From Bacteroidales bacterium (lineage in GTDB: Bacteria; Bacteroidota; Bacteroidia; Bacteroidales; UBA10428): a DNA stretch of 64,000 bases. The position numbers and the translations under genes were made by a program. Below are positions 6,201 through 55,946 of this stretch, one piece after another. Under the pieces are notes generated by a model. The model saw nothing but the letters and a program-made list of their open reading frames with translations. It ran no database searches and had not been told where the DNA came from. Where the stretch lies: assembly GCA_016935435.1 (NCBI GenBank), contig JAFGQZ010000026.1:1-64000 (forward strand), in the 5' to 3' direction. Every line of letters starts with the position of its first letter. The stretch's first letter is position 1.

Positions 6201-8132
6201 ACCCTTGTATTCAAAATCTTCAAAATCGGGGGGAGTATCAAAGTCTTGTATTATTAAGGGCTTCGTGTATTTGTCGTTCGATGGGTCTTGATCACCGGCA
6301 AGTCCTGTCCCAACAACAAATTTATTGTAATAATCGCCTTTCGGGAAATTGGCCAGTTGACTAAAAGTAAACAAAACACTATCGCCAATATTAATGCCGC
6401 CGTATAATGTGTCGCGTACCAAAGTTGAATCAGCCCCCCAAAGCCCGTAATATACAGGAATGGCATTTGGTGCAGCACCCACGGCAAAGTTTTTAAACCA
6501 TGCTTTAACAGTGTCGTTGCCGCAACCTATACATTCGTTATGTGGCTCAATAACCCCAACAACCCCAACATCGGTATATAATTTTTCACCAATTATTGCA
6601 AAATTATCAACACTTATGCCTGGCCAGGGTGTCAACATCGATTCTGTTATCCCAAACCTGAGTTGAAAATTTGGCTGACGCCTGCACAGGCTGTCAATAC
6701 TGTTTACAATAAATTCTGTCCAATACGAGTTGTTTGATGCCTGGTCGCTTGTCCATATATTCTGCCAGCTTGCCCCATTATTTGTTGAATACTCAATTAC
6801 AGCATTATCGGGCCCGTTTACCGAAAAAAACGAATGCATATATACGGCAATTTTTATATAATAAGTAAGATCAAATACGGGGGTATAGGCATAGTATGCC
6901 GTACTCTCATTAATATTTGGAAGGTACCCGCCATCGAGATCGGTAGCCAGTATATTTAAGCCATTATACGGGGTTTTGGGGTTCGATTGGATATCAACTT
7001 GGTTGCCTTCGGGCCACCCAACCTCAAAATTACCCTGGAGCAGCCAGCCTGGAGCACCCGTCTCAAAATTATCATAAAATACCGATTCCCTTAAAACATG
7101 GTTTTTTGAAAATGGTGTTACAGTTGCAGGAAAAGTAGTGTCGCTAACCTGGATGCCATTGGCCGGAACAGTGAATGAAACTGTTTTCTGGCCTTTTAAG
7201 GTGTTCTTTACACTTGCTGCTACCCATAAATTATTGTCGCCCAGGAGCAGTTTGTAATTTATACCTGTAAAAACAATATTGCCGCCAACTTTAGTGCCTG
7301 TGGCTATAAGTGTTGAGGTATCAGATATATATGGTGCAAAAGCATCGCCGCGTGTGTAGAACAATTTAAAAGTATTTCCAAGGTGCTCAACCCCGGTACC
7401 TTGTGGTGTAAGTGTCAGCGAATTCAACCTTGCTTCTCCGCTATTGCCCAATACACGCATCTTAATCCTTTCAAAAGGAATGTCGGTAGCATTTGATGGC
7501 ACCATTGTATGGTTAACCGAGCTGTATTCCGTATTCTTAACAAACATAGGAACAGACTCTTCTTCCAATACAGATACACTGTCGATGTAAACCCCATAAC
7601 CATTCCCGATTATGCCTTCAAAAGCAATTTGAAAGGTGTCGCTTAGGTATTGTGAACCAATATTTGCAATATCATAAACTTCTTCTTTCCAATATGAGAT
7701 ATCGTCGGTCCACGATTCAATAACATTCCATTGTGAATTTGGCCCTGCCCGAAAGAGCAAGCGTAAAAAATCGGGCCCCTTTAGTATTTTTGTATATTGG
7801 CAATGCCAAAACCTTAGCATGGGCTTTACAGCGCCATCCAGTTCCAGGGTAGGGGTAACCAGTTTAATTGAATCTAACTCAAGGGCAGGAAAGTAAATAC
7901 CTGCATTAAAATTACCCTGAACAGGAATTTCGGGGTTATACGGATCGCCACCGGATTTCCATTGCCCCCCGTAGGTGTATTTCCAGGTTTTATTGGCTAT
8001 ATATGGATCAACAGTCCAATAATAGGCCGAGTCGGTCCTTTCAAAATTCTCCAACAGGTAAAACAATTCCTGCGAAAGGGCATAGCATAACGATAAAGTA
8101 GAAAGCAGCAGTGTGGTTATAGTTCTTTTCAT
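3219..8132 (-). CDS. Giant secreted multidomain protein with T9SS type A sorting tail
   Basis: This 1637-residue protein starts with a clean signal peptide ('MKRTITTLLLSTLSLCYALSQE') and ends with a type A T9SS sorting domain ('LYPNPANDILNIEA', 'VEIYDIRNQLVF', 'MPAGVYFIRF'), so it should be exported and anchored at or released from the cell surface. The N-terminal half holds three jelly-roll or MAM-like modules (about residues 25-195, 345-535, 645-825), each with a 'YSTNNGASW'-like strand. The C-terminal half alternates CARDB-like domains with Ig-like units bearing 'LDAGTGFESYSWNTGD'-type motifs, at least three times. No catalytic domain was recognised; an adhesive or structural role is likely. 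It is divergent from the 2026-aa gene. Confidence 0.88.
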   Translation of the reverse strand: MKRTITTLLLSTLSLCYALSQELFYLLENFERTDSAYYWTVDPYIANKTWKYTYGGQWKSGGDPYNPEIPVQGNFNAGIYFPALELDSIKLVTPTLELDGAVKPMLRFWHCQYTKILKGPDFLRLLFRAGPNSQWNVIESWTDDISYWKEEVYDIANIGSQYLSDTFQIAFEGIIGNGYGVYIDSVSVLEEESVPMFVKNTEYSSVNHTMVPSNATDIPFERIKMRVLGNSGEARLNSLTLTPQGTGVEHLGNTFKLFYTRGDAFAPYISDTSTLIATGTKVGGNIVFTGINYKLLLGDNNLWVAASVKNTLKGQKTVSFTVPANGIQVSDTTFPATVTPFSKNHVLRESVFYDNFETGAPGWLLQGNFEVGWPEGNQVDIQSNPKTPYNGLNILATDLDGGYLPNINESTAYYAYTPVFDLTYYIKIAVYMHSFFSVNGPDNAVIEYSTNNGASWQNIWTSDQASNNSYWTEFIVNSIDSLCRRQPNFQLRFGITESMLTPWPGISVDNFAIIGEKLYTDVGVVGVIEPHNECIGCGNDTVKAWFKNFAVGAAPNAIPVYYGLWGADSTLVRDTLYGGINIGDSVLFTFSQLANFPKGDYYNKFVVGTGLAGDQDPSNDKYTKPLIIQDFDTPPDFEDFEYKGGIWLPDTGSRWECKIMSGTIPTDPLSPNIWVLSATGNYSNNDTSYVVSGCYDFSDISRNIVRMKYWSDCEDAKDGARLEYSTDNGVNWYIVNDTIYGAGWNWTTDYVDALGSNGWSGQNVWKTAQALLPVSADSGSKVKFRLIFMSDEANSFPQGFAFDDFEFFPAPADIGVSSIVMPADACFGTNPPITSLYIKNLGYNNLNINDTIIIGVDFENNQPVIDTFLLSADLIPGDSVLHTITMNFNIEQPGLYNIKAYTLIEDDPFFYQNNNDTLSYTFNIWPNPTIILADTLGSRQPDTLWVKPQYPDWVPGYTYLWHDNVTTDSIFDVVSTGLHWVTVTEPVHGCVTTDTIDVVVLYFDAGATEVVYPVSTCELDSTEYIQVRVTNVGTDSLVAGDKVAVSYSVNGSEPVYDTVDITAPLRFSNSLVYTFAENPFDFSEYGTYSITVSASYVGGDFNTANDAHTAVVNAYGYTPLDLGPDLVVKALDYVLDAGTGFESYSWNTGDTTQTTYIDEAGTYWVAALDANGCPGNDTVDIWFKIRDIMPETMLSPQNSCDRTGPEPIELRFRNNGTDTITPADIVTLKYSINSGAYISETFSPTNNILPGGQATRTSENTFDFSNYQDYVIDIVTTSTGDLRPGNDSLRAGTSTRQTPAVNLGEDKTISAFQYILDAGTGPNYSYLWQDKQTNTQTYTASITGNYYCVVTDTTTGCYGSDTVYLFFDINDYGIHSVSVPNQVCEGNRSNVSVELINSGNLPRTGAILNVAFSINGNDSVTQQFEINSLWMPGFTQTVTLSGPMPFNTVGSNNLRVFLDGQADINSNNDDLEKSIFVLAAPVVNFGGDTLRVAMPHRLDPGLHESYQWQDNSTNRYFTVNMPGNYSVIVTNAANCITTKAVFVDRLSSISNAIPESLDVKLYPNPANDILNIEANIKLGGELLVEIYDIRNQLVFSDKHKGFAIYSHQLDVNTMPAGVYFIRFRNNQLYYITKFVIE

Positions 8133-14458: not shown

Positions 14459-14599
14459 TGGTTTTATATCCTGTGTTTTACGTAAAGGGCGCTTTGTTAA
14501 AAACTTATAAGGTTGCTTAATGGTATTTCTTATATTTTTATCAAAATATTTAAACCCGGCACGTACAGTTTCGTATTACAAACCAAAAAACACCACAAA

Positions 14600-15571
14600 T
14601 TGCTAAAGCAAATTTCATATATCACATTGCTCATTATGTTGTCCGGAAACATAAAGGCAATCGATCCGCAGTTCTCACAATTTTATGCCAATTCGCTTTA
14701 CCTTGGGCCTTCGTTTGCCGGAGCCATTGAAGGGAGCCGCTTATCGGCGCAGCACCGCAACCAGTGGTACGAACTGTCATCGTCTTTTAAGACTTACAGT
14801 TTTTCTTTCGACCACTATTTTAAGTCGTTCAACAGCGGTTTGGGTTGTAATTTTATGCAGGATGTTGCCGGTTCAAGCGAGCTTGGTTTTTTACAGGCTG
14901 GCATACACTATTCCTATAATTTTGAAATATTTAATATCTGGCACGTAAGGCCTGGTTTATCTTTCTCGTATGTCGAAGAAGGAATTTTCGGGAACGTTCT
15001 TTTTATCGATCAATTGCGGACTGATGCCGGCCCTTCATCGGCTTCGGGACAGGCACTTGAAGAAGCCCGAGATATTGACGCTGCTAGTTCGTTAATTATT
15101 TACACTAAAGGTTTTTGGCTGGGCGCAACAGTCGATCACTTATTAAAGCCGGAAATATCGCTGTATTCTACCAAAGATTATACCGAAATAAAAACCTCGG
15201 TTTACGGTGGCATTGATGTTCACCGAAGGGGAAGGTTGCTCAAGCCCAGCGAAGATGTTCTCACCTTTGCATTTTTATACAAACAGCAGGGAACAGTGCG
15301 ACAGCTCGACCTGGGCGCTTATTGGTACAATTACCCTATTAATATTGGTCTTTGGTACCGTGGTTTACCTACGTTCAACTCGCAGCGCGGCGATGCCGCT
15401 ATATTTATGCTTGGGCTGAAATTTACAACCTTTAATATTGGCTATTCTTACGACTTTACAATATCGAATGTTTTGCAGTACACAAGAGGGTCGCACGAAA
15501 TATCGGCAACCTATAAGTTTAACCTTACCAAGAAAAAGAAAAAAGGCGGGCTGCCTTGCCCTGAATTCTAG
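14600..15571 (+). CDS. PorP/SprF family type IX secretion membrane protein
   Basis: The mature protein begins 'IDPQFSQFYANSLYLGPSFAG', the hallmark of PorP/SprF proteins, and continues as an aromatic-rich outer-membrane beta-barrel of ~300 residues. Such proteins attach type B T9SS cargo to the cell surface, which fits the type B cargo gene 142 bp upstream. The ORF track starts at TTG 14513, but that gives 29 extra residues before any signal peptide. I prefer TTG 14600, which gives 'MLKQISYITLLIMLSGNIKA', a compact signal peptide ending AxA-like. Both choices use a non-ATG start; ATG 14636 would truncate the signal. The gene ends with a Lys-rich tail, normal for the family. Confidence 0.88.
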   Translation: MLKQISYITLLIMLSGNIKAIDPQFSQFYANSLYLGPSFAGAIEGSRLSAQHRNQWYELSSSFKTYSFSFDHYFKSFNSGLGCNFMQDVAGSSELGFLQAGIHYSYNFEIFNIWHVRPGLSFSYVEEGIFGNVLFIDQLRTDAGPSSASGQALEEARDIDAASSLIIYTKGFWLGATVDHLLKPEISLYSTKDYTEIKTSVYGGIDVHRRGRLLKPSEDVLTFAFLYKQQGTVRQLDLGAYWYNYPINIGLWYRGLPTFNSQRGDAAIFMLGLKFTTFNIGYSYDFTISNVLQYTRGSHEISATYKFNLTKKKKKGGLPCPEF

Positions 15572-40434: not shown

Positions 40435-43400
40435 ATGAACACATCTTTACTTCGCACCGCAAACCTTATTTTTGTTGTTCTGTTTGTTTCTCAACTTTTT
40501 TGCCAGGAAATTATAAACCCTAAAGAAACCTTTGTTGAGGCAGAATCGTACTTCCTCTTCGAAGAATATAAAGACGCACTTCCCTTATACCAGAAACTTC
40601 TGCGGCTTGATCCGGGAAACCACAACCTGCTTTATAAAGTAGGTATCTGTTATCTCAACGATCCTTACCAAAAGGAAAAATCCATCAGGTACCTGCTTGA
40701 TGCCTCAAAAAGTATTGGCAAAACATACAAGTCGAATAATTTTAAGGAAAGAAACGCCCCTGTTGAGGTTAATTATTATCTCGGCCAGGCTTACCGTATT
40801 AATAAACAATTCGACAAAGCACTTGAACATTATGCACTTTTCAAAAACGATCTCGACCCTGTTGTTTTTGATGTAGAAGTTGTTAACGATGAAATTGCTT
40901 CGTGCCAGGTGGCAAAAAAAATGATAACATCGCCCGTATATACTTCAAAAAACAACTTTGGGGCTGAGATTAACTCACGTTTCGCCGATTTTAATGCTGT
41001 TCTGTCTGGCGATGGAAATACCCTGGTTTTTACCCGGGAACTTCAATTTTACGATGGAGTTTTTATTTCGGTTAAAGACAACAACGGCAAATGGGCTCCT
41101 CCCTACAATCTAACCTCCGATTTTGGCCTCGACGGCAATTCATATTCCACCGGTATTTCATTTAATGGCGATGAAATTTTTGTTTACCGTAGCGACAATT
41201 TCGATGGCAATATCTATTCAAGCAAATTTGAAAATGGCAGGTGGCAGCCGCTAAAAAAACTTAATGGCAATATAAACACCAAATTCTGGGAATCGCATGC
41301 ATCGCCTTCGCCCGATGGACAATATCTTTTCTTTACATCGAACCGCAAAGGTGGATATGGCGGCCTTGATATATATAAATCGCCACGGCTTTCAAATGGA
41401 GAGTGGGGGCCGGCAATTAACCTTGGGCCAATTATTAACTCACGGTACAACGACGATACCCCGTTTCTGTCGCCCGACAACAGTAAATTGTTTTTCAGCT
41501 CCCTCGGCCACAACGGCATGGGAGGTTACGATTTGTTTGTATCGGAAATGATTAGCCCCTCATCATGGTCGAGGCCTGTTAATATGGGTTTCCCGCTTAA
41601 TACACCCGACGACGATTTGTTTTTTTGTCCGGTGGCTGGCGATAAAGCTACTGGAATATACACAGCTTACGATGAAAATACCTCCTACGGGCTGATGGAT
41701 ATTTATTATTTTAAAGTATTTAACTCAGTACTTCCAAGGCCTTTTACCATTGCAGGCAAAATTACCGTTCCTTCTGAGAAATTGCTGGAAGACGGACAAA
41801 TTAAAGTAACCATTATCGACTCGAAACAGGGCAAAATTATAGAGCAGGTTTCTGTCGATAAATCCGGCAACTTTATATTAAAAGCCAATCAGGGCGAATA
41901 TCAGTTACTTGTCGATGGCGAAGGCATAAAACCTGTAACATTGCCCTTGAAACTGATACTTACCCAGGAAAACTCAATAATTGACCTGCCATTAATAACC
42001 ACGCAGGTTGCAGAGGTTGGCGGCGATATTATGATTACTTCTGCCCCTGTTCAGCCAAGGCTCGAAATAGAAGGAAAGAAATATATCGAAACCGATCAGG
42101 CTGTTGTTCCCATAAATATTACTGCAAAAGCTGGCAACACCCTGGAAATTCAGAATTACATAAATGGCAAACCTGCACCAAAGGTTGAAATTATCCTGCC
42201 AGACGATAAATACACCTATATGTTTGAGCCCGGGCCCGGCGATAACCACCTGGTGTTTACATTGAGGGACAAAAACGGAATGATAAACCAGCAGGAGCTT
42301 ACAGTTTATTATAAACCATATCCCGAAATTCCGCCTCTTACCGAAGAAGTTAGTTCTTCCCCTACCCAATTGTCTGATATTGCAGGCTTTGCCGAAGGAA
42401 AACTTAAAGACTACCTTAATTCACTGGAGGCACTTGAGTACAACTCCCTGGCCGATTTATACGAAATGCTGGCCGCCAACGCTTTAAACAACGGCTATAC
42501 ACAGGAACAGGCCGAAAAGCTAATTGCCTTGTTACTGGCGCAAAGAAGCAAAGTTGAGTTTATGTCCGATGTACACTCAAATCAAAACCTTAAGTATTAT
42601 TTCGATAACGACTCCCTGATAAAACCAATTAATATACCGCTGTTAATTGTTCAATCGGTTAAACTGGGGCATTTGCCCGAGAGCATGGTTATTGAACAGC
42701 ACCTTACCGATATTGTTCCTTTTACTGGTTCGCCCGACGGCTTATTTGAGTATATCTTATCGTTTGTCGATGACAAACCCTTCTTAACAAAGCCCGAAGA
42801 CTTATCGAATATTTATTATAGCCTTTCACAAGTATTGGAGCCTCAGCAGCTAACGAGTGCTATCGATATATCGGCAACAAGCGAAAACCCCGATCAGTTG
42901 TATTACAATTTATTGGTTAGCGCCGATGGAAATTACAGGAAAATGTTGTCGGGGCTAAATTTCGAAAAGCTGAATATTCAAAACTCAGTTGACATAATCG
43001 GCCATATTTTTGCCGAAGCACCAAAACATGGGCTCAATATACCTGAAGTAATAAGATTTATTGAAAATGCGCGTAGTTCCGAAAGGCAAAATCTCATAAA
43101 TTTCAAAGAAATGCTTGCCGAAGCTGCCAGTGGAGGGCTAAAAGCACATTTGCAGGATTTTGATATAAATGCAGTTTCAGGAAACAATGCTTATGCCGGA
43201 ATTATTGAAGCCCTGCTGCGCGATTCCAGGAGCAAAGGGTATAATAAAAGCGAAGTTTACGACCTGCTGGTGGAGCTAATAGGAATAAAAAATATCGACG
43301 ATTTTATTGCCTGTATGCGCAAATACACTTCAGGCGATCTCGATTCGTTATTGGCCGGAATCGATAAGAACCGCTTTTCAAAACCAATAGAACTGATACA

Positions 43401-43647
43401 ATACCTGCTTTCCGAAGTGCCATATTACGATTTTTCCGACTCCGACATTAACAACCTTTTGTTGCGCATGCTTCTTGAGAATGGACTTACAGGACATGAA
43501 GTCGGAAAATCGGCAGGTTATTCCCGCGAATTAATTAAAAAGCGCCGTATGGTAACAACAGTGGTATTTGCCAATGTTTTGCTAATACTCATTTTCATAC
43601 TGTTATGGCGAAGGAAAAAGAAAAAAGAGAAAGCCCAAAATGATTAA
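40435..43647 (+). CDS. TPR-PD40 protein with novel helical repeats and C-terminal membrane anchor
   Basis: This is the longest of the six paralogues (1070 aa). After a signal peptide come a TPR domain (~28-165, 'YKDALPLYQKLLRLDPGNHN', 'APVEVNYYLGQAYRINKQFD'), PD40 beta-propeller blades (~185-420, 'FFTSNRKGGYGGLDIY', 'GHNGMGGYDLFVSEM') and a carboxypeptidase-regulatory-like domain (~430-525). From ~650 to 1030 there are at least four copies of a ~65-residue helical repeat that I do not recognise. A transmembrane helix (1041-1058) and a basic tail ('RRKKKKEKAQND') follow. The shared front half is PorE-like (a T9SS envelope component), but this one lacks the OmpA domain and is anchored by a helix instead. 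It overlaps the next gene by 8 bp. Confidence 0.85.
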   Translation: MNTSLLRTANLIFVVLFVSQLFCQEIINPKETFVEAESYFLFEEYKDALPLYQKLLRLDPGNHNLLYKVGICYLNDPYQKEKSIRYLLDASKSIGKTYKSNNFKERNAPVEVNYYLGQAYRINKQFDKALEHYALFKNDLDPVVFDVEVVNDEIASCQVAKKMITSPVYTSKNNFGAEINSRFADFNAVLSGDGNTLVFTRELQFYDGVFISVKDNNGKWAPPYNLTSDFGLDGNSYSTGISFNGDEIFVYRSDNFDGNIYSSKFENGRWQPLKKLNGNINTKFWESHASPSPDGQYLFFTSNRKGGYGGLDIYKSPRLSNGEWGPAINLGPIINSRYNDDTPFLSPDNSKLFFSSLGHNGMGGYDLFVSEMISPSSWSRPVNMGFPLNTPDDDLFFCPVAGDKATGIYTAYDENTSYGLMDIYYFKVFNSVLPRPFTIAGKITVPSEKLLEDGQIKVTIIDSKQGKIIEQVSVDKSGNFILKANQGEYQLLVDGEGIKPVTLPLKLILTQENSIIDLPLITTQVAEVGGDIMITSAPVQPRLEIEGKKYIETDQAVVPINITAKAGNTLEIQNYINGKPAPKVEIILPDDKYTYMFEPGPGDNHLVFTLRDKNGMINQQELTVYYKPYPEIPPLTEEVSSSPTQLSDIAGFAEGKLKDYLNSLEALEYNSLADLYEMLAANALNNGYTQEQAEKLIALLLAQRSKVEFMSDVHSNQNLKYYFDNDSLIKPINIPLLIVQSVKLGHLPESMVIEQHLTDIVPFTGSPDGLFEYILSFVDDKPFLTKPEDLSNIYYSLSQVLEPQQLTSAIDISATSENPDQLYYNLLVSADGNYRKMLSGLNFEKLNIQNSVDIIGHIFAEAPKHGLNIPEVIRFIENARSSERQNLINFKEMLAEAASGGLKAHLQDFDINAVSGNNAYAGIIEALLRDSRSKGYNKSEVYDLLVELIGIKNIDDFIACMRKYTSGDLDSLLAGIDKNRFSKPIELIQYLLSEVPYYDFSDSDINNLLLRMLLENGLTGHEVGKSAGYSRELIKKRRMVTTVVFANVLLILIFILLWRRKKKKEKAQND
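42381..43530 (+). repeat. Protein-level ~65-residue helical repeat inside the 1070-aa TPR-PD40 protein
   Basis: Units align as helix + 'G[YL]' turn + 'EV..LL' helix, then a 'G-x-L-x-x-x-L-x-x-[IF]-D' closing motif. Two clear copies are 'SVDIIGHIFAEAPKHGLNIP... ASGGLKAHLQDFDINAV' and 'AYAGIIEALLRDSRSKGYNK... SGDLDSLLAGIDKNRF'. The closing motif also appears as 'EGKLKDYLNSLEAL', 'GNYRKMLSGLNFEKL' and, more loosely, 'NLKYYFDNDSLIKP'. Alignment was made by eye. Confidence 0.65.
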
Positions 43648-45679
43648 GTTACCCTGTAAAGTATTATTATTTAATGCACTATGGCTGGTTTCCGCAATAA
43701 ATTTGTCCGGACAGTTTTATATCGAGAATAAGGCAATTTACGACGAAGCCATCTCTTTTATCGATGGCGAAGAATATGAAGAAGCCTTGCCCTTGTTGCT
43801 TATGTTGGAGAAAAAAGGTATTAAAAATGCCAATGTACAATTCAATATAGGGCTTTGCTATATTAATATCGACGGACAAAAACTCCGTTCGAAGCCTTAT
43901 CTGGCAGAGGCAGCCAAAAGCTTGACGGCCAATTATAACCAACAATATGCTGACTCGGCCGCCCCTTACGAAACCCTTATACTGTTAGGCACTGCGTACA
44001 GGCTTGAAAATAATTTTGATAGTGCAATTTTTTCTTATCAAAGGGTTGGCCAGTTATCGGGCGACTCATTGCTACAACAGAAGGCCGAATATTATATAAA
44101 ACAATGCAAAACAGCCGAACTCTTATTGAAGTACCCTGCTGATGCCAAATTAACAGCCATCGAAGATTTTGTTGATGTTTCGGTTTATAATCCGGTAATA
44201 GTTGCCGGTGGTCAGGATAAACTAATTTACATGCAAAAACTTAAGTTTTACGATGCCATAACTCGTTCCGATATTGACAATAATGCTTTAAGGGGTTCAG
44301 AGAACATTACTCCTGAATTGGGCTCCGATGGCGACATGATATTGGTAAGCGCTTCTGTCGATGGCAATACACTGCTATTTAGTTCATACGATGCCGGCAA
44401 TGGCTACGAGTTATATTACGCCACTAAAGATGAAAAAGGGAAATGGCAAAAAATAAAAAAATTCGATAAGCCCATAAACAGTGCTTTTAACGAATCAAGT
44501 GCCTGTTTAAGCTACAACAACCGTACAATTTATTTTAGCAGCAACCGGCCCGGAGGCTTTGGCGGGTCTGATATCTACACATCTAACCTGCTTTCAGATG
44601 GAAGCTGGTCGGAGCCTGTTAACCTTGGACGAATGATAAATACCCCTCAAAACGAAATATCGCCTTATTTATCGGCGAATGGGGAAATGCTGTTTTTCTG
44701 TTCCGAAGGGCACATGAACATGGGAGGGTACGACATATTCGTTTGCCATAAGGATAAAGATAACTGGGGTACGCCGGTAAATCCCGGAAGCCCTGTTTCC
44801 ACTACCGACAATGATGTGTTTGTTTGTCCAATGGCCGACAGTCTGGTGCTTCTTACACACAGGCTTGTGCCCGGCCGCGATAGCCGTATAAGAATGTATA
44901 AAATTAACTATAGCGATGATATTTATGGCTACAGGCTTGCACTTTCCGGCACCCTCGATTTTAACGACACAATACCCCCTAAGCCTGTTTTATATTATGT
45001 TTGCGATAATTCTGAAAATAATGCCCAACAGGTGCTCAAAACCGATAACGAAGGCAATTTTTCGCTCTTGCTTTCGCCGGGCGACTATACAATGAACTTT
45101 ATTTACAACGAACAAGTACAGGCCACACAACAGGTTAGTGTTAAACCCCTGGCAGGCATTCATGAACTAAATATCGGTACACCGCTATGGAAAAACACAA
45201 AGGGGAGCATTGAGCAACCTGATTTAACTAAAACCGATAAAAAGCCTGTTGAAAAATCGGTACTTCTAATTTCAATCCGCGATGTGCTGTTTTCCTTCGA
45301 CAGTTATGCCATTAACGATAGCTATAAGCCAATGCTCGACAGTGTGGCCCACATAATAAAAAACTTCAACGAAATTAAAATAGAAGTTACCGGACATGCC
45401 GATTCTATTGGCAACTCACAATACAATCTGATACTTTCTGAGAAAAGGGCCCGGGCAGTAGCCAAATATTTGTTTTCGGCTGGGGCGCCGGCCGATGCCG
45501 TTAGTGCCGGGGGAAAAGGCGAAACACAGCCTGTGGCCATTAATACCAACAGCGATGGCTCCGATAACACCCTGGGGCGTAAATTTAACAGGCGTGTTAC
45601 GCTTGAGCTAAAGTTTTCAGATCAGCCTATTAATGTTGTAAAATCCGATAGCATACCATTAAACCTCAAAGTTGAATAA
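43640..45679 (+). CDS. TPR-PD40-OmpA family protein (PorE-like)
   Basis: The 679-residue protein has a signal peptide ('LFNALWLVSAINLSGQ'), TPR domain (~28-165), PD40 blades (~175-410: 'FSSNRPGGFGGSDIYTSNLL', 'EGHMNMGGYDIFVCHKDK'), a regulatory-like beta-sandwich (~428-505) and a C-terminal OmpA domain (~545-660). The OmpA domain has 'IKIEVTGHADSIGNSQYN', 'LSEKRARAVAKYL' and 'NRRVTLEL', with the Asp and Arg that grip diaminopimelate. It should tie the outer membrane side to peptidoglycan. This is the domain set of PorE of T9SS. It overlaps the preceding gene by 8 bp, so they are coupled. Confidence 0.88.
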   Translation: MIKLPCKVLLFNALWLVSAINLSGQFYIENKAIYDEAISFIDGEEYEEALPLLLMLEKKGIKNANVQFNIGLCYINIDGQKLRSKPYLAEAAKSLTANYNQQYADSAAPYETLILLGTAYRLENNFDSAIFSYQRVGQLSGDSLLQQKAEYYIKQCKTAELLLKYPADAKLTAIEDFVDVSVYNPVIVAGGQDKLIYMQKLKFYDAITRSDIDNNALRGSENITPELGSDGDMILVSASVDGNTLLFSSYDAGNGYELYYATKDEKGKWQKIKKFDKPINSAFNESSACLSYNNRTIYFSSNRPGGFGGSDIYTSNLLSDGSWSEPVNLGRMINTPQNEISPYLSANGEMLFFCSEGHMNMGGYDIFVCHKDKDNWGTPVNPGSPVSTTDNDVFVCPMADSLVLLTHRLVPGRDSRIRMYKINYSDDIYGYRLALSGTLDFNDTIPPKPVLYYVCDNSENNAQQVLKTDNEGNFSLLLSPGDYTMNFIYNEQVQATQQVSVKPLAGIHELNIGTPLWKNTKGSIEQPDLTKTDKKPVEKSVLLISIRDVLFSFDSYAINDSYKPMLDSVAHIIKNFNEIKIEVTGHADSIGNSQYNLILSEKRARAVAKYLFSAGAPADAVSAGGKGETQPVAINTNSDGSDNTLGRKFNRRVTLELKFSDQPINVVKSDSIPLNLKVE

Positions 45680-45749: not shown

Positions 45750-46464
45750 TCAACCTATCAATCGATAAGAACCTTGCAGCAGCCTATGTGATTGGGTAAA
45801 CCACCGGAATCCCAATATTTTATCAGGTAAACTATCAACCCGCCATAATTCTTTAGCTTTATCAATTCCTTTAGCATTAAAGTTTTCCTTAATCTCATTA
45901 TTTTTAAAGTAATATATCCATTGATCTATGGAATCTTTAGCTACATCATTAAAGTTATTTACCTTTATCACATAATATTCAGGAAAAATTTGAAAAGGTT
46001 TAATCTTGCCGCCAAGTAGTTCAGTTTGTTTTGATGATAGTTTTAATTTATGCGAGGTATGTAATCCAACAAAATCTGTCTTACCATGATATATATAATC
46101 CTCGCCTTGTCCTAAATCAAAATAGACAATGTTTATTGAATAGACCTTTTTCATGTTCTTATAAGGCTCTCCAACCGAAATGTATTCTGTTATCACTTTT
46201 GAAGTTCCATAGGCCATCCGGTGGAAATAATCATATTCATTCTCATTCTGAATCTCAATGATGACTAGTTCATTTTTTGAGTTTTTAACCAGAATATCTA
46301 CACGGTTAAAAATATCTGAATCTATCATTTTCAAGTATTGATTGTATTGAAATTTCGTCTTTTAAAAGCTCTGACAGAAATCCTTCCAAAACTGAAAAAT
46401 AAGCTTTGTTTCGCAGTAATCTCTTGATTGCCCAATCAAAACGTATTAAGCTCCTATTATTCAT
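45750..46464 (-). pseudogene. Frameshifted Rpn-family PD-(D/E)XK nuclease (transposase-related)
   Basis: The 194-aa ORF (45750-46334) carries the middle of an Rpn/PD-(D/E)XK protein: 'NRVDILVKNSKNELVIIEIQNENEYDYFHRM', 'INIVYFDLGQGEDY', 'LFPEYY'-like 'IFPEYYVIKVNNFNDVAKDSIDQWIYY'. The expected N-terminus ('MNNRSLIRFDWAIKRLLRNK', then 'VLEGFLSELLKDE') lies just upstream in another frame, from ATG 46464. Removing one T from the TTTTT run after 'DRFRY' joins the frames. The C-terminus after 'KAKELWRV' also diverges from the family. It is probably dead. It lies in reverse between two array genes. Confidence 0.75.
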
Positions 46465-46676: not shown

Positions 46677-48458
46677 ATGAAGAGATTTCTAATTCTAGGC
46701 ATTTTCTTTTCTTTTTTTTCGGCGATAGGATATAACCAGAAGGCTGAAATATCATTGAAAGAATATTTTGCCGATGCGGAATTTTTCTTTGCCAGTGAAG
46801 AATATTCCGATGCACTCCAGGAGTACTTAGAAGTATATAAGCGTGGATATGAAGGAAACGCCAATATCAATTATAAAATTGGTATTTGCTATCTGAATAT
46901 ACCTGCACAAAAAGAAAAATCGATAGAATACCTGGTTGCGGCATCAGAAAAAGTTTCGTCGAAATACAGGGGCTCAACACTTAGCGAAACCACTGCCCCT
47001 ATAGATGCCTTTCTCTTTCTTGGGAATGCATATAGGGTTAACAATAAACTGGGAAAAGCTATCGAATCGTACAATCATTATTTATCGATACTGCCGGAAT
47101 TGGCTGTAGAAGAAAAAGGCTATGCCCTAAAACAAATTGAAGCCTGCAATATTGCGCAGGAGTTTTTTAACGACTCGGCAAAAGTAACTTTTAAAAACCT
47201 CGGACAAATAATAAATACCAGCAGCTCTAACCACAATTGCGTTGTTTCGGCCGATGGTTCTACAATGGTATTTATGACAAAACTACCATTTTACGATGCT
47301 GTTTTTATGTCGAAGAAACGCGGGTCGAACTGGTCAAGGCCTGTTAATATTACACCTCAGATAATGTCAGACGGCGATCAGTTTGTTACCGGAATATCGC
47401 ACAGTGGCTCTTGTATTTTACTGGCCAGGCAAGATGCTTTCGACAGCGATATTTATATAAGCTATTACGAAAATGGCGAATGGACAAAATCGAAACCCCT
47501 GGGAAAACCATTTAGCAGCCGTTATTTCGAGTCGCATGCTTCTTTTGGCAAAGATGAAAATACTATTTTTTTCACAAGCAACCGTCCCGGGGGGATTGGT
47601 GGCATGGATATATACTACTCTGTAAGGAAACCAGATGGAGCCTGGGGCGAACCAGTAAATATCGGGGCTGACATAAATACACCCCTGAACGAAGACACTC
47701 CTTTTTTGTCGGATCAGGGAAACCGGTTGTATTTTAGTTCGCAGGGGCACATGAACATGGGAGGATACGATTTTTTTGCAGCCCACCTTACCGATTCTGG
47801 CTGGACAAACCCCGAAAATTTGCGCTATCCTTTATCTACTACCGACGATGATTTATTTCATTTTCCATGGAAAGAAGGAGAAGCGGCCTATGTACAAAAA
47901 ATCTTCGACGATGGACTGGGCAGCTGGGATATTTACATGGTTGAACCTGCAATAGAAGCACCTGTTGCCGAACCTGTTGCTGAAGTTATTAAAGAAGCGG
48001 TTCAGGAAACTCAGGATAAAAAAGCAGAAACCATTGAATTTGAATCAAAGCCGGTATTGTTTGGATTCGATGCATATACCCTTACAGCCGAAGCTAAAGC
48101 AGAAATCAACCGCTACATTGCCCTTTTGAAGAAACATCCTGCACTAAGCATTACCGTGAAGGGTTATACCGATGCACTGGGGCCTGAACACTATAACATG
48201 CTCTTGTCTGAAAGAAGGGCAGCAACAGTAGTAAAATATATGACAGAACAAGGCCTTGCTCCCGAAAAGCTGAAAATTATGGGTATGGGCGAATCGAATT
48301 TTATTGCTGCCAACACAAAGCCAGACGGCTCCGATAACCCCGAAGGGCGAAAACTTAACCGCAGGGTTGAACTTGAAATCTCAGGCATCGATCCTTCAAA
48401 AATCATCATCCGAAGAATAGATATAGTTCCCCGGGAATTTAAAATTCCCGAAAAATAA
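46677..48458 (+). CDS. TPR-PD40-OmpA family protein (PorE-like paralogue)
   Basis: The 593-residue protein has a signal peptide ('FLILGIFFSFFSAIGYNQ'), TPR domain (~25-150, 'SDALQEYLEVYKRGYEGNAN'), PD40 blades (~175-410, 'FFTSNRPGGIGGMDIYYS', 'GHMNMGGYDFFAAHL'), a Glu/Val/Pro-rich linker and an OmpA domain (~459-580: 'LSITVKGYTDALGPEHYN', 'LSERRAATVVKYM', 'NRRVELEI'). There is no regulatory-like beta-sandwich between PD40 and OmpA, unlike the 679-aa paralogue; the linker does that job. It begins the second part of the array after the Rpn pseudogene and ends at a strong terminator. Confidence 0.88.
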   Translation: MKRFLILGIFFSFFSAIGYNQKAEISLKEYFADAEFFFASEEYSDALQEYLEVYKRGYEGNANINYKIGICYLNIPAQKEKSIEYLVAASEKVSSKYRGSTLSETTAPIDAFLFLGNAYRVNNKLGKAIESYNHYLSILPELAVEEKGYALKQIEACNIAQEFFNDSAKVTFKNLGQIINTSSSNHNCVVSADGSTMVFMTKLPFYDAVFMSKKRGSNWSRPVNITPQIMSDGDQFVTGISHSGSCILLARQDAFDSDIYISYYENGEWTKSKPLGKPFSSRYFESHASFGKDENTIFFTSNRPGGIGGMDIYYSVRKPDGAWGEPVNIGADINTPLNEDTPFLSDQGNRLYFSSQGHMNMGGYDFFAAHLTDSGWTNPENLRYPLSTTDDDLFHFPWKEGEAAYVQKIFDDGLGSWDIYMVEPAIEAPVAEPVAEVIKEAVQETQDKKAETIEFESKPVLFGFDAYTLTAEAKAEINRYIALLKKHPALSITVKGYTDALGPEHYNMLLSERRAATVVKYMTEQGLAPEKLKIMGMGESNFIAANTKPDGSDNPEGRKLNRRVELEISGIDPSKIIIRRIDIVPREFKIPEK

Positions 48459-48606: not shown

Positions 48607-49896
48607 ATGAAAAACTTTCTTGTGACATTTTGCACAATATTAACATGCTTTTCGCTAAAGGCACAACCCGATTATACCCCGGAAGAACTCTTTTCGGAAG
48701 GGCAATATTTCTACCAGAGGGACGATTTTAAGGAAGCCCTTTTTTTTTACAAGTCGTTGCTGGACAAATTCCCCGACAATGCCCATTTTAATTTCAAGGT
48801 CGGCGAATGTTACCTTAACATTGCCGGGCAGGAGCACCTGGCCGTGCCATACCTCGAAAAAGCAGTTCAGAAGGTAGTCCCCAAAAAACAATTTCGGGAG
48901 CGCAATTTCAATGAAGCCAATGCCCCTTTGCATGCAATGTATTACCTTGGAAACGCTTATCGGGCTGCAGGAAGGCTTACCGAGGCGCTTGAACAATATA
49001 AAGGTTTTCTCGACTCCCCTTATTTCTTTGGCAACTACAACTTCGAAGTAGTTGAAACTGAAATCAACTCGTGCGAACGTGCTGTTATTATTCAGGATTC
49101 GCCCATAAAATACACAAAAACAAAGCTAAACGACAATATCAACACAGAATTGTCGGAGTTTAGCCCGGTAATGTCTGCCGATGGGCAAACACTTGTTTTT
49201 GTAAGGGAATTAAAGTTTTATAATGCAGTGTTTATGTCGAAAAAAACCAGTAACGGGTGGGGCGGGGCAGTAAATATCACACAGGAAATTATTTCCGATG
49301 GCAATTTCTACCCAACAGGGCTAAACAGTAGCGGAACAGTTATGCTCCTGGTAAAACAGGAAAATGACAATTCTGATATTTATATATCGTATTATAAAGA
49401 CTCAAGGTGGGGGCCGGCCGAAAAAATTGCCGGAAAAATTAACACCCTGGCAATGGAAACTTTTGCCTCTTTTGGGGCTGGTGACAAAACAATTTATTTT
49501 ACCAGCAACCGTACCGGCAGCAAAGGCAAGGGCGACATTTACCAGAGTGCCATGAACCCCGACAGCACCTGGGGAAAAGCTAAAAACCTTGGAAAAACTA
49601 TTAATACAAAACTGGATGAAGAAACCCCGGTTGTATGCAATAATGGCAAAACGCTGTTTTTTAGTTCAAAAGGCCACGACAATATGGGAGGGTACGATAT
49701 ATTTTATACACATTACAATAACAAAAAGTGGTCGGTGCCCCGAAACCTCGGATACCCGATTAATACCACTCGGGACAATTTATTCTATATATCAGGTCCT
49801 GGTTGTTTGACAGCCATAATGTCGATGGTCGATACAGAAACAGGCATTTCAGATATTTATGAAATAACCATCGGAGAACCCCTGGTTATTCCCTAA
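48607..49896 (+). CDS. TPR-PD40 protein without a C-terminal anchor
   Basis: The 429-residue protein has a signal peptide ('LVTFCTILTCFSLKAQ'), TPR domain (~22-150, 'KEALFFYKSLLDKFPDNAHFNFKVG', 'APLHAMYYLGNAYRAAGRL') and PD40 blades (~175-425, 'FTSNRTGSKGKGDIYQSAM', 'GHDNMGGYDIFYTHY'). It stops right after the propeller; no OmpA, SPOR or membrane domain follows and the next gene has its own signal peptide, so it is not a split gene. It may be a soluble periplasmic or outer-membrane-associated member that works with anchored paralogues. The next gene starts 14 bp later. Confidence 0.85.
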   Translation: MKNFLVTFCTILTCFSLKAQPDYTPEELFSEGQYFYQRDDFKEALFFYKSLLDKFPDNAHFNFKVGECYLNIAGQEHLAVPYLEKAVQKVVPKKQFRERNFNEANAPLHAMYYLGNAYRAAGRLTEALEQYKGFLDSPYFFGNYNFEVVETEINSCERAVIIQDSPIKYTKTKLNDNINTELSEFSPVMSADGQTLVFVRELKFYNAVFMSKKTSNGWGGAVNITQEIISDGNFYPTGLNSSGTVMLLVKQENDNSDIYISYYKDSRWGPAEKIAGKINTLAMETFASFGAGDKTIYFTSNRTGSKGKGDIYQSAMNPDSTWGKAKNLGKTINTKLDEETPVVCNNGKTLFFSSKGHDNMGGYDIFYTHYNNKKWSVPRNLGYPINTTRDNLFYISGPGCLTAIMSMVDTETGISDIYEITIGEPLVIP

Positions 49897-49910: not shown

Positions 49911-51746
49911 ATGGGTAAAATCGATTATATACATGTAATATTGTTTTTACTGCTAGGCTTAATATCAAAATTTGCAAACGCACAGTTATCTGCGGCCGAT
50001 AAGGACAATTATTCAGAGGGCGATTATTATTTTTCTGTTGGCGATTTTAACAAGGCTGTAAAGTATTTCGATGGGCTTGCTGTTAAATATCCCGACAACT
50101 CAAAATTTAATTACCGGGCGGCAACTTGTTATATGGCCATAAAAGGCAGCGAAAAAAAAGCCTTGCCATTTCTACGAAATGCTGTAAAAGAAATCGACAC
50201 AAAATATTCCGAAACAAAGATTAAAGGAACCGGAGCCCCGGTTGAAGCATGGTTATACCTTGGCGATGCCCTGCATGCCGAAAACATTTTCCTTGAAGCA
50301 TCGCAAGCCTATCACAATTATAAGCAACATTTATCGCCAGGTTCCACCGAAATGAAGAGGGCCACAACACGTATCAGGGGACTCGGGCTGGCCTACGAAG
50401 AATCGCTTCGCCCATCGGGATACGAACTCACCAATATTGGCGATGTGATTAATACCATCAATTCCGATTATAGCCCTGTATTTAGTGGCGACATGCGAAC
50501 AATGGCCTACACATCGTTTCTCGATCCAAAAGATAAAGTATTTTTCTCGGAAATGGTTAATGGTGTCTGGTCGAAACCAACTGATATTACGGCACAGACA
50601 GGTTCCGGGGGCGATTGCTTCACTGCTGCCCTATCTTTTGATGGCAACGAGCTATACTTAATAAATTACGATCCGTTCGATTCCGATATTTTTGTTTCAA
50701 AAAAATCTAAAGGGAAATGGACAAAAATGGAAGCTGTCGATAAGAAAAGAATAAACTCAAAATATATCGAAAACGGGGTTTCGGTTTCAGCCGACGGCAA
50801 TACCATGTTTTTTAGCAGCAACAGGCCCGGCGGTTATGGCGGTTTCGATATTTATATATCACAAAAACAGGGCGAAACATGGTTAAAGCCTGTTAACCTC
50901 GGCAAAACCATTAACACTCCTGACAACGAAGAAAACCCTGTACTGTCGCCAGACGGGAACAAACTTTTTTTTGCCTCGAACGGGCACAGTACCATCGGGG
51001 GCATGGACATATTCTGGTCGGTAAAAGACAGTAACGGAGAATGGCAAGACCCCATTAATATGGGCGCGGCCGTTAATACACCTGGCGACGACATTTCGTT
51101 TTGGTTCTACGACGAAACCCAGCCCGGGTTTGTTTCGCGTGCTGATAAAAACAGTTTTGGAAAAACCGACATTTATAAGGTTGTATATACTGCCCCCCCT
51201 CAGCCAGTATTCGAAGATGTTTATACTGCCCTGCCCGGCACATCGGGTATTTTTGCTACAGGCGACACTGTTGTTGACCTTTTAAACGACACATTACTTG
51301 TTGCATTTCATAGCCCTTCCGAGAAAATATTGGGTGAAGGCAAAGGCAACGAAACCAAAATAAATATTAGCGAAACCGAAATCGTGCAGGGCGAGGAAAA
51401 TAAAGTTGTTCAAATTACAGAAACAGAAAAAGATTTAACAGAACAACCAAAGCCCAATGTTATAAATATAAAAACCGGCAGCCAGGGAAAACCCGGTGAA
51501 TTATCCGTTAAAGACGGGCAATATACCATACAAATAATGGCTTTGTTGCGCCCACGCGAAGCTGCCATATTTGAAAGAATCGATAAAAGCAAAATGAGAG
51601 TTACACAGGGGAATGATGGCTTTTACCGTTATACATACGGGATGTATAGTTCACAGGCAATGGCTGTTTCCGACCTTAGAAAACTTATACGGCTGGGCTT
51701 TAAAGATGCTTTTATTAGAAATATTGATGAAATAGATAATTATTAA
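49911..51746 (+). CDS. TPR-PD40 protein with C-terminal SPOR domain (first copy)
   Basis: The 611-residue protein has a signal peptide ('VILFLLLGLISKFANAQ'), TPR domain (~25-150), PD40 blades (~175-430, 'FFSSNRPGGYGGFDIYISQK', 'GHSTIGGMDIFWSVKD'), a Thr/Glu-rich linker and a C-terminal SPOR domain (~533-610: 'DGQYTIQIMALLRPREA', 'YRYTYGMYSSQAMAVSDLRK', 'KDAFIRNIDEIDNY'). SPOR domains bind denuded peptidoglycan at septa and elsewhere, so the anchor differs from the OmpA paralogues. It closely matches the 600-aa gene further on and shares the phrases 'GYEL' and 'IRNIDEIDN'. Its stop overlaps the GNAT start (TAATG). Confidence 0.87.
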   Translation: MGKIDYIHVILFLLLGLISKFANAQLSAADKDNYSEGDYYFSVGDFNKAVKYFDGLAVKYPDNSKFNYRAATCYMAIKGSEKKALPFLRNAVKEIDTKYSETKIKGTGAPVEAWLYLGDALHAENIFLEASQAYHNYKQHLSPGSTEMKRATTRIRGLGLAYEESLRPSGYELTNIGDVINTINSDYSPVFSGDMRTMAYTSFLDPKDKVFFSEMVNGVWSKPTDITAQTGSGGDCFTAALSFDGNELYLINYDPFDSDIFVSKKSKGKWTKMEAVDKKRINSKYIENGVSVSADGNTMFFSSNRPGGYGGFDIYISQKQGETWLKPVNLGKTINTPDNEENPVLSPDGNKLFFASNGHSTIGGMDIFWSVKDSNGEWQDPINMGAAVNTPGDDISFWFYDETQPGFVSRADKNSFGKTDIYKVVYTAPPQPVFEDVYTALPGTSGIFATGDTVVDLLNDTLLVAFHSPSEKILGEGKGNETKINISETEIVQGEENKVVQITETEKDLTEQPKPNVINIKTGSQGKPGELSVKDGQYTIQIMALLRPREAAIFERIDKSKMRVTQGNDGFYRYTYGMYSSQAMAVSDLRKLIRLGFKDAFIRNIDEIDNY

Positions 51747-52351: not shown

Positions 52352-54154
52352 TTGAACAATATTCTCAGTTATATAAAACATCCTTTCAGGTGGACTTTTT
52401 GCCATAAGTACTGTTTTTTGCTGCTGTTTTTCTTTACTGTAAACTATGTATATCCTCAATTTACGGCCGAAGAAATAAAACTGTATATCGAAGGCGACAA
52501 TTATTTCTCGAAAGATGAATTCAGAAAAGCTTCTGACTTTTTCACCATGCTGCTCGATAAATACCCCGATAACCCCAAGTTTAACTATAGGGCCGGGCAA
52601 TGTTTCTTAAATATAAAAACCCAGGAAGAGAAAGCTGTGGCACACTTTATTAAATCGGTAGTTGAAATCGATTTAAGTTATAACGAAAGTTCAATAAGGG
52701 GACTTGGGGCACCTCCCGAAGCATGGCTGCAACTTGGCATTGCATACCATGTTACAGGCAATTATATCGATGCGTCGTTTGCTTACCATAAATACCTTAC
52801 TTACCTCGAAAGGGGCAGTTGGGAATATATCGAAACAGTAAAACGCATTAAAGGTTTGGGTGCTTCTTACGATGCATTGTTCAGGCCAACCGGTTATGAA
52901 CTGGTAACCATGCCCGAATACTTTAACACCAGGTATTCCGATTATAACCCTGTTGTAAGCGGCGATAAAAAAACCTTTGCCTTTACTGCCCACCACAATG
53001 GCAACGATTATATTTTTATATCGTACTTGGCCGATGGCGAATGGGCAAAGCCTGTTGATATTACTGAGCAGGTTGGTTCCAGGAAGAATTTTTTCACTTC
53101 AGCCCTTTCATTCGATGGAACCGAGTTGTACCTGGTAGATTACGATCCGTTTAATTCCGACATTTTTGTGTCGAGGTATGAAAATGGCAACTGGACTGAA
53201 ATGGCGCGCCTCGATAAAACTATTAATACCATGTCGATTGAAACAGGGGTATGCCTGTCGGCAGGCGGCGACACATTGTATTTTTGCAGCAACAGGGCTG
53301 GGGGGTATGGCGGGGTCGATATATATTATTCTGCTAAACTTAACAATAAATGGGGAAAGCCCGTTAACCTGGGCAATGTTATTAATTCTTCTGGCGATGA
53401 AGGGGCGCCTAAAATATCGGCCAATGGAAATACACTTTTCTTTTGCTCGAACGGCCACGAAGGTATTGGTGGTTTCGATATTTTTTATTCTGAAAAAGAC
53501 AGCAACGGGGCATGGGGAAAGCCAATAGGATTTCCGGTACCGGTGAATTCTGCCGACGACGATATGTCGTTCTTTTTTTTCGACGATATAAAATCGGGCT
53601 ATATTTCAAAACTTCAGGAAGGTACGAACAACCGCGATATATTTGTGATAAGGTTTATTCAGGAAACTGAAAATGATAGCCCGGTGGCCATTCGGGCAGA
53701 GAACTTTAACCAAGCTTTGGAAAACAACGAAGAAAGGCCTGAAATTACATATTCTGTTGAAACACCCGATAGTATAGAAAAACAGCTTATTAAGGGCGAT
53801 GAGCATGCAGATACCCAATTCGAGGTTGTTTCCGATACCCTATTCGTTTCAAATGATGAAACAATACTATCAGGGGATGTTTTTTCTGGCAGCGACAAGC
53901 AGGTTCCAGGTGGAGAATACACCATACAGGTTATTGCCTTTCGTAACCCCCACAATGCCGAGGTGTTTTCGCGCCTGAACAAAAACTATTTTTTTGTTTC
54001 ACCGGGAGGCGATGGTATATGGCGTTACAGTTTCGGGCGCTATTCAACAGCAGGCGATGCCTCTGCCGATCTTGAGGCATTAAGGAAAATGGGGTTTTCC
54101 GATGCCTTTGTACGAAATATTGACGAAATCGACAATTTTAACGCCCAACAATAA
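52352..54154 (+). CDS. TPR-PD40 protein with C-terminal SPOR domain (second copy)
   Basis: The 600-residue protein starts at TTG; no ATG gives a better N-terminus. After the signal segment ('YCFLLLFFFTVNYVYPQ') come the TPR domain (~38-165), PD40 blades (~190-440, 'FCSNRAGGYGGVDIYYSAKL', 'GHEGIGGFDIFYSEKD'), an acidic linker and a SPOR domain (~519-598: 'GGEYTIQVIAFRNPHNA', 'WRYSFGRYSTAGDASADLEAL', 'SDAFVRNIDEIDNF'). Matching blocks with the 611-aa gene suggest a tandem duplication around the GNAT gene. It is 69 bp downstream of the GNAT gene. Confidence 0.86.
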   Translation: MNNILSYIKHPFRWTFCHKYCFLLLFFFTVNYVYPQFTAEEIKLYIEGDNYFSKDEFRKASDFFTMLLDKYPDNPKFNYRAGQCFLNIKTQEEKAVAHFIKSVVEIDLSYNESSIRGLGAPPEAWLQLGIAYHVTGNYIDASFAYHKYLTYLERGSWEYIETVKRIKGLGASYDALFRPTGYELVTMPEYFNTRYSDYNPVVSGDKKTFAFTAHHNGNDYIFISYLADGEWAKPVDITEQVGSRKNFFTSALSFDGTELYLVDYDPFNSDIFVSRYENGNWTEMARLDKTINTMSIETGVCLSAGGDTLYFCSNRAGGYGGVDIYYSAKLNNKWGKPVNLGNVINSSGDEGAPKISANGNTLFFCSNGHEGIGGFDIFYSEKDSNGAWGKPIGFPVPVNSADDDMSFFFFDDIKSGYISKLQEGTNNRDIFVIRFIQETENDSPVAIRAENFNQALENNEERPEITYSVETPDSIEKQLIKGDEHADTQFEVVSDTLFVSNDETILSGDVFSGSDKQVPGGEYTIQVIAFRNPHNAEVFSRLNKNYFFVSPGGDGIWRYSFGRYSTAGDASADLEALRKMGFSDAFVRNIDEIDNFNAQQ

Positions 54155-54329: not shown

Positions 54330-55946
54330 ATGTGCCGCATATTTGTATATATATTATTGTTATTGTTTGCAGTACCGCTTTTACATTCGCAGGAAAATAC
54401 ACCTTTTTACCTAAAAAATACCGATTGGCTTCAACAAAAAGATGCTAAAAAGTGGGAAAAACTTGTTGGACAAATCCCCGATGCCGACAAACTTATACAG
54501 CAAAGCAACGAATGTTACCTTCAAGTTGCTGCGATTGAAACGGAAAGCAGCGATAAAACAAAACAAAAGCAGGTAACAAAGCTTGAAAAACAGTCGGCAG
54601 AATATTATAAACAAGCATTAATAAAGTACAAAGACATTTACCAGGGCTTGTATGCTGTTCTGAGCGACAATATCGATGAAGCGGCAAAAACACACCCAGC
54701 ATACACCGATATGCTCCATTTCAATAGCCAGGCAGAAGAATTATATGCCGTAGCCAATGATCTTTCGGACGAAGGGCAACGCGGACAATTTTCGCAGGCC
54801 AACGAATTTCTTTTGGCGGCCGTAGAAAAAGGGGTTTCGGTTTTCAATGTCCCGCAATCGGCTTATGTAAACAATATAGGGGGTACAACCAACGAACCTG
54901 CTGTTTCTGATGATATTGTTATTAATCCGGAGTTTTACAGGAAGTACAAAGAGTATGTCGAGAAATATGATACTCCCGACCCATTTGTAATTGGCCAACT
55001 TTTGCAAACCGGAAGCAGCTATGCCGGTTTTGAGGAGTACAAAGAAATGTGGAACAAATTTATAGCTTACGAAGAGGGAAAAGAGGCAGTTCAAGTGCAG
55101 ATAGAACAGGCCATAAAACTTGACAGCACTGGTGAAAGTAGCCCGATTTTGCCTGTTGGCCCCCAACTAGGGCCAGAAACAACCGTGCAAACAGAACCCG
55201 CCATTCACAAAGATGAAGTTTCGAAAAGCATAATAATACCTGAGTCGGGTTTAACAGAAAACCTTGAAATTGCTTCAACACCTGAGGAAACAACCCAAAA
55301 GACAGAAATAAAAACACAAAAAAAGCCAATTACCGAAGGGTTGTTTGTCCCAGATATTTCTTTTGCCAACGATTTACCCGAATACAGGGTGCAGCTTGCG
55401 GCCAGCCGCAGCCCATTGAACATGCAACAGGTTATGGCTATTTACAAAGGCCCTTTAAGTGTTGTTGAATCGAATGAAGGTGATTTGTACAAATACCAGA
55501 TACGTTCCTTTACACTATACACCGACGCACAGAGAATATGCAGCCAATCGGGCGTTGAAAATGCCTACCTGGTATCGTACAGCGGCGGGCTTATGGTTGA
55601 CCTGGCCGAAGCCATAAAGCAAACACAGGCAGTTGCCATGCAGGTAAAAAAACTTGGTAAAGAAAAAGTGCTGCACGAAATAGAATTTTCCGTTCAGGTG
55701 GCTGCCTCAAGGGTTAGGTTAACCGCATTGCAGCTTAGCGAAATTTATTCTGCCCGGTGGCCGCTTACAGTTGTTTTCGAAGGGGGCTGGTACAAATACC
55801 AGATTTTGGCCGGCAAAAGCATGCAACAGGCATTGGACGTCCTTGAAAACTGCGGTGTGGAAAAAGCTTTTCTGACTGCCTCTAAAAACGGGAGAAAACT
55901 ATTATTATATAAAGCATTACATGAATATAAATCATACGCACTATGA
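54330..55946 (+). CDS. Exported protein with two SPOR domains
   Basis: The 538-residue protein has a signal peptide ('IFVYILLLLFAVPLLHSQ') and a long N-terminal helical region (~25-200) of TPR-like character ('LEKQSAEYYKQALIKYKDIYQG'). Two SPOR-type domains follow: ~350-420 ('YRVQLAASRSPLNMQQV', 'YKYQIRSFTLYTDAQRICSQ') and ~450-525 ('FSVQVAASRVRLTALQL', 'YKYQILAGKSMQQALDVL'). The paired domains suggest peptidoglycan cross-bridging or tighter binding. It lies immediately before the Wza-like gene with a 4-bp ATGA overlap, so the two are translationally coupled; I infer a link to the export machine. It has no PD40 domain. Confidence 0.84.
   Translation: MCRIFVYILLLLFAVPLLHSQENTPFYLKNTDWLQQKDAKKWEKLVGQIPDADKLIQQSNECYLQVAAIETESSDKTKQKQVTKLEKQSAEYYKQALIKYKDIYQGLYAVLSDNIDEAAKTHPAYTDMLHFNSQAEELYAVANDLSDEGQRGQFSQANEFLLAAVEKGVSVFNVPQSAYVNNIGGTTNEPAVSDDIVINPEFYRKYKEYVEKYDTPDPFVIGQLLQTGSSYAGFEEYKEMWNKFIAYEEGKEAVQVQIEQAIKLDSTGESSPILPVGPQLGPETTVQTEPAIHKDEVSKSIIIPESGLTENLEIASTPEETTQKTEIKTQKKPITEGLFVPDISFANDLPEYRVQLAASRSPLNMQQVMAIYKGPLSVVESNEGDLYKYQIRSFTLYTDAQRICSQSGVENAYLVSYSGGLMVDLAEAIKQTQAVAMQVKKLGKEKVLHEIEFSVQVAASRVRLTALQLSEIYSARWPLTVVFEGGWYKYQILAGKSMQQALDVLENCGVEKAFLTASKNGRKLLLYKALHEYKSYAL

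Follow-up and report, generated by a model that had tools for sequence, protein, structure and literature searches.

A helical-repeat family in an apparent inner-membrane variant of the PorE-like proteins of Bacteroidales

Layout of the protein and its relation to PorE and CHU_0125

PorE is a periplasmic scaffold, the OmpA domain of which binds peptidoglycan (PMC5053529, PMC7192894), and without CHU_0125 the outer membrane loses its integrity (PMC5891637). The stretch of DNA analysed here, hereafter called the window, comprises 64,000 nucleotides of a Bacteroidales bacterium of lineage UBA10428 (GCA_016935435.1, contig JAFGQZ010000026.1, positions 1-64,000 of the forward strand) and contains an open reading frame (40435-43647 (+)) for a protein with the order of TPR, PD40 propeller and carboxypeptidase-regulatory-like domain (CRD) of the PorE/CHU_0125 family. 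The TPR-PD40-CRD front is shared with PorE (PG1058, a type IX secretion system (T9SS) component of Porphyromonas gingivalis; profile NF052230) over residues 30-494, with a score of 131.7 bits, which is far below the cut-off of 600, and the front half is shared with CHU_0125 of Cytophaga hutchinsonii (NF053607) with 142.3 bits, below the cut-off of 620. Beyond the front the proteins differ: the OmpA domain of PorE is replaced by an Ig-like region, the repeats and a membrane helix, with no lipoprotein signal, and whereas CHU_0125 is a Pal-like OmpA lipoprotein, the predicted location of the repeat protein is the inner membrane. Pfam gave no OmpA match in the repeat protein; two of its neighbours have OmpA domains.

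The open reading frame corresponds to 1070 amino acids, with the repeat region at residues about 650-1026, as given in a preliminary description made from the sequence. The regions follow in the order TPR, PD40, CRD-like, probable Ig-like, approximately 375 residues without a family match, a hydrophobic helix and RRKKKK. The N-terminal signal peptide (40435-40506 (+), MNTSLLRTANLIFVVLFVSQLFC/QE) is apparently an ordinary one, no lipobox being found by inspection and no conserved Cys at the cleavage site in the 19 orthologues aligned. It is followed by the TPR region (40507-40929 (+); Pfam TPR_2, 31.8 bits, cut-off 27) and the PD40 beta-propeller (40930-41724 (+); Pfam PD40, 66.2 bits in three stretches), which is the most conserved segment of the orthologues. 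The CRD, as in PorE (41725-42009 (+)), is covered by the PorE-family profile, which reaches residue 494, and NOMO_5th matched it below its cut-off. The pattern of the sequence suggests a probable Ig-like beta domain at 42052-42318 (+), conserved in the 19-orthologue alignment, for which no family match was obtained.

The genome carries the T9SS motor protein GldM, with a full match on contig C69, and T9SS cargo. A second, weaker GldM match (L144, contig C64; profile positions 316-523) had 31.3 bits, below the cut-off. In the window, a 1637 amino acid protein at 3219-8132 (-) has a C-terminal T9SS type A sorting domain (TIGR04183, 40.1 bits), and the segment 8378-15571 codes for a 2026 amino acid protein with IgGFc_binding and PKD domains and a CHU_C T9SS signal, followed by a PorP/SprF gene (14513-15571), likely a pair of T9SS cargo and anchor.

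A helical repeat with a variable number of units

The window protein contains a helical repeat of 66-68 residues. At least four units with a period of about 65 had been aligned by eye, and unit HMMs located four clear units: unit 1 (42394-42585 (+), residues 654-717), unit 4 (42925-43128 (+), residues 831-898), unit 5 (43129-43329 (+), residues 899-965, motif GGLKAHLQDFD) and unit 6 (43330-43503 (+), residues 966-1023, motif GDLDSLLAGID). The motif GxLxxxLxx[IF]D, originally taken to close each unit, is actually at the unit start, in helix 1. Unit 6, the last, ends after helix 3 and continues without helix 4 into the linker ahead of the membrane helix.

A unit HMM trained without the window sequences detected the four units at E 2e-9 to 3e-14 (units 1, 4, 5 and 6 at 2e-9, 2e-9, 3e-10 and 3e-14, respectively). 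Trained without the whole family of the window, on 36 units from other families only, it detected the same four at E 6e-5 to 3e-8 (6e-5, 2e-7, 6e-8 and 3e-8) and in a shared 66-68-residue register. The best E values in shuffled tails (n = 700) were 2.7e-3 and 6.5e-3 for the two HMMs, respectively. The unit HMM and the register hold in 36 orthologues, and the proteins of sister genera have six units by the unit HMM, spaced at about 66-68 residues. In the unit profile used for the genome and PDB searches, the register of two window rows out of three was off by about 18 residues; profiles rebuilt without any window row, and then without the whole family, gave the same units, so the conclusions are independent of the misregistered rows.

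Two further units, eroded in the window genus and visible only via orthologues, lie between residues 718 and 830: unit 2 (42586-42768 (+)), with no HMM match of its own in the window protein, and unit 3 (42769-42924 (+)), which is also shortened there and is whole in other genera of the family. The 19-orthologue alignment was divided into six candidate units for profile-profile comparison. Thirteen of the 15 unit pairs were linked at 75-98 % probability, including unit 2 with units 1, 4 and 5 at 91-96 % and unit 3 with the same units at 76-82 %, and the other two pairs had 17.5 and 34 %; null comparisons reached at most 25 % with column-shuffled and 24 % with reversed profiles. Ungapped self-comparison of the single sequence gave a best score of 43, compared with 39 and 46 for the 95 and 99 % nulls. 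Since this is short of clear significance, the evidence for the repeat comes from the family.

The unit consensus is G-N-L-K-x-x-L-x-x-L-D/N ... I/F-x-T/S-x-x-E/D-L-I-x-Y-L-L ... G-Y-T/S-x-x-D/E-V/L-x-x-L-L ... F-x-x-x-L, with strong conservation of L4, L8, L28 (90 %), Y/F37 (90 %), D/E41 (80 %), F58 and L62. The positions conserved between units are mostly those of the hydrophobic core, helix-capping Ser/Thr and Asp/Glu, and one Gly. Structure models were made with 8 sequences as input each. For the relative L107, AlphaFold gave an array with four helices per unit (pLDDT 88, pTM 0.84), in agreement with the helical nature of the repeat originally claimed, and the model of the window protein was good for units 1 and 4-6, poor at residues 705-815 and of low confidence in units 2-3.

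Relatives have from 1 to about 12 whole units, with the TPR-propeller front before the array and the membrane helix with basic tail after it both constant. At E < 0.01, one unit was found in L116, L118 and L075, two in L076, four in L069 and L071, five in L068, L070 and L072, six in the sister genera and ten in L066. The arrays of L066 and L073 (both proteins of about 1490 amino acids) are approximately 790 residues long, with space for about twelve units, and have gaps of whole-unit length at units whose divergence keeps them from scoring. Within single proteins of family f15 the units are 48-57 % identical, a sign of more recent duplication.

Between species, units 5-6, which are proximal to the membrane, are the most conserved, with 41 % identity compared with 20-22 % in units 2-3, and the genomes of the window's family retain the six-unit layout despite the low identity in units 2-3. 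The array had been proposed to be a rod or a docking surface. The change in copy number by whole units, together with the free sequence and kept layout of units 2-3, fits a spacer and favours the rod, and the stronger conservation of units 5-6 suggests a docking site near the membrane. A strict ruler fits poorly, because the array length varies tenfold and the width of the periplasm should not.

Distribution, lineage and gene neighbourhood

The repeat was found in 22 of the 23 genomes of the window's family, including all 12 of good quality, and the unit-profile search gave a single repeat-bearing protein in the window genome. In the order sample it was present in 19-20 of 247 genomes (about 8 %), from ten families. 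The samples of the class (395 genomes) and the phylum (297 genomes) each had one bearer, the window's own genome, and no other. A search for related loci from the window sequence alone found none; the seven named loci from the closer sequence set are from Bacteroidales or Bacteroidota MAGs. In a FastTree tree of the TPR-propeller part, 15 of 15 repeat bearers were in one clade (support 0.988) and a clade of 21 (support 0.92) contained all 19 bearers; the 19 were not recovered as strictly monophyletic. The PorE-like paralogues that bear the repeat fall together as a single lineage.

The gene neighbourhood is constant: the usual upstream neighbours of the repeat gene are a glycosyltransferase gene and a 2-oxoacid dehydrogenase E2 gene, and across the family and the order it is accompanied by PD40 paralogues with OmpA, SPOR or neither. 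Five such paralogues follow in the window, all on the (+) strand. The first (43640-45679; PD40 59.4 bits, OmpA 73.3 bits) overlaps the repeat gene by 8 bases, and the second (46677-48458) also has OmpA (Pfam, 78.5 bits). The third (48607-49896) has TPR and PD40 only (Pfam), the fourth (49911-51746) has PD40 and a weak SPOR match of 17.3 bits, compared with a cut-off of 21, and the fifth (52352-54154) has PD40 and SPOR (37.9 bits). The repeats had been described as lying where the paralogues have OmpA or SPOR; two paralogues have OmpA there, two have SPOR (one over the Pfam cut-off and one slightly under it), and one has neither.

Between two of the paralogues there is a gene for a PD-(D/E)XK family transposase (45753-46334 (-); PF12784, 55.9 bits, profile positions 51-181 only), and nothing like it was prominent at the same place in the ORF lists of relatives. 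After the SPOR-bearing PD40 paralogue, 54330-55943 codes for a 538 amino acid protein, the SPOR match of which is marginal (21.6 bits, cut-off 21). The regions beside the glycosyltransferase in 12 repeat-less genomes, two of them stretches under 6 kb, were searched for orthologues having the front and the helix and no repeats; the PD40 cluster was absent from all, except for a single PD40 protein in one.

Membrane anchor, proposed role and known helical families

The transmembrane helix (43549-43608 (+), MVTTVVFANVLLILIFILLW) was located from the 19-orthologue alignment and coincides with a hydropathy peak in relatives. It is followed by the basic tail RRKKKKEKAQND (43609-43644 (+)), which is predicted to be cytoplasmic and is Arg/Lys-rich in almost all orthologues; the hydrophobic helix and basic tail are present in the complete bearers examined in the family and the order. 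According to the positive-inside rule, a stop-transfer helix followed by Arg/Lys has inner-membrane topology. The preliminary description had left inner- or outer-membrane anchoring open; a membrane anchor agrees with the present analysis, and the inner membrane is favoured. An ordinary signal peptide together with a hydrophobic C-terminal helix and a basic tail implies an inner-membrane protein with a periplasmic body, and the sequence therefore points to a repeat protein in the inner membrane with its repeats in the periplasm. Asn1047 (43573-43575), inside the membrane helix, is invariant in all 19 family members, which is unusual for a plain anchor; no equivalent was seen in the tails of more distant families.

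There is about an even chance that the array is a periplasmic inner-membrane stalk and docking rod of a set of PorE-like scaffold proteins, with the repeat protein as the sole membrane anchor. The signal peptide would be cleaved and the front half exported, and the C-terminal helix would fix the protein in the inner membrane with the basic tail in the cytoplasm. The array would stand in the periplasm as a stalk, holding the TPR/propeller head toward the peptidoglycan or the outer membrane. By analogy with the OmpA domain of PorE, the sister proteins with OmpA or SPOR may bind the cell wall. The repeat protein would then tie the set to the inner membrane as its single membrane anchor, and the set would form a scaffold from the inner membrane to the cell wall. 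A putative partner may dock at the two units next to the membrane, which are the best conserved, and the middle units may be a spacer.

An exosortase-like protein of this genome (L157:6735-7826, on contig C7; PF09721, 30.2-30.4 bits, cut-off 25.7; 30.2 bits for this protein) makes a different fate of the C-terminus conceivable. The helix and basic tail, features which sorting signals also have, would then be a cleaved exosortase-type signal and the mature protein would be released or attached elsewhere. GG_III-CTERM and PEF-CTERM matched weakly but far below their cut-offs. Such a signal needs a conserved motif just before the helix, yet no PEP-CTERM-like motif was found there, and of all segments measured this linker has the lowest conservation (mean entropy 2.63 bits compared with 1.48 bits in the helix); cleavage is considered very unlikely. 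A rather less remote alternative, though still doubtful, is that the array acts chiefly in multivalent binding. All units would then recognise one type of ligand, for example an exported protein, a glycan strand or a secretion component in transit, and a longer array would offer more sites. The whole-unit gains and losses, the lineage-specific duplications of family f15 and the T9SS motor protein and cargo in the genome are in keeping with it, but the conserved unit positions are mostly in the core, helix caps and one Gly, no conserved polar surface patch is prominent, and the middle units drift freely between species.

The units could also belong to a known but highly diverged helical family, HEAT, TPR, annexin or death-like domains of the EAD8 type, which we consider improbable. 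In its favour are sub-cut-off matches to EAD8 (3 of 19 members, best E 2.8e-4), DED (E 0.023 in one of 98 units), PYRIN (one unit) and CheR_N (three units), but these vary from unit to unit, and neither EAD8 nor DED, as effector-associated or death-like families, exceeded its cut-off. None of the natural sequences of the region scored over the cut-off of a Pfam, NCBIfam or PHROGs family, and hmmscan of whole regions and 98 single units gave no HEAT, ARM or TPR match above cut-off. SelB-wing_2 scored 27.8 against a cut-off of 22.3 with a synthetic double consensus only, over a partial unit; since a consensus inflates scores and the family was not leading among natural units, this match was set aside. 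Among PDB sequences, no profile search had a match with an E value under 0.049. Foldseek with two models gave no PDB match at E ≤ 0.001 (highest probability among the matches listed 0.08, in a search run without a solenoid control) and none at this E among viral models. As in HEAT/ARM/TPR alpha-solenoids, the units are tandem and all-helical and are predicted to stack into an array, but they have four helices in 66-68 residues, whereas HEAT and TPR units have two, and there is no match in sequence or fold. Annexin repeats are likewise tandem, all-helical and about 70 residues long; annexin entries were matched by Foldseek at chance level only (E 2.8 and above), and the annexin calcium motif is not seen in the units. 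No description of the repeat was found in the literature searched. The original view that the repeat is unlike recognised families stands with respect to curated cut-offs, credible PDB sequences and PDB folds at E ≤ 0.001, and the family appears to be new and undescribed in the libraries searched.

The preferred reading, of a stalk in the inner membrane, may be extended tentatively, at odds well short of even, to a new four-helix solenoid class without a solved relative, which in one Bacteroidales lineage would act as an inner-membrane stalk of adjustable length for a PorE-like trans-envelope scaffold set. Stalk length would be an evolvable trait, because it changes by gain or loss of whole units. 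The repeat, apparently a new family carried by an inner-membrane variant of the PorE-like proteins, extends the known helical repeats by an unlisted family for which there are a confident model and a reusable profile, and points to an inner-membrane member of a group of which the studied proteins, PorE and CHU_0125, are outer-membrane-associated lipoproteins. Because unit number differs so widely among relatives, removal of units would be a direct test of the spacer and docking ideas.
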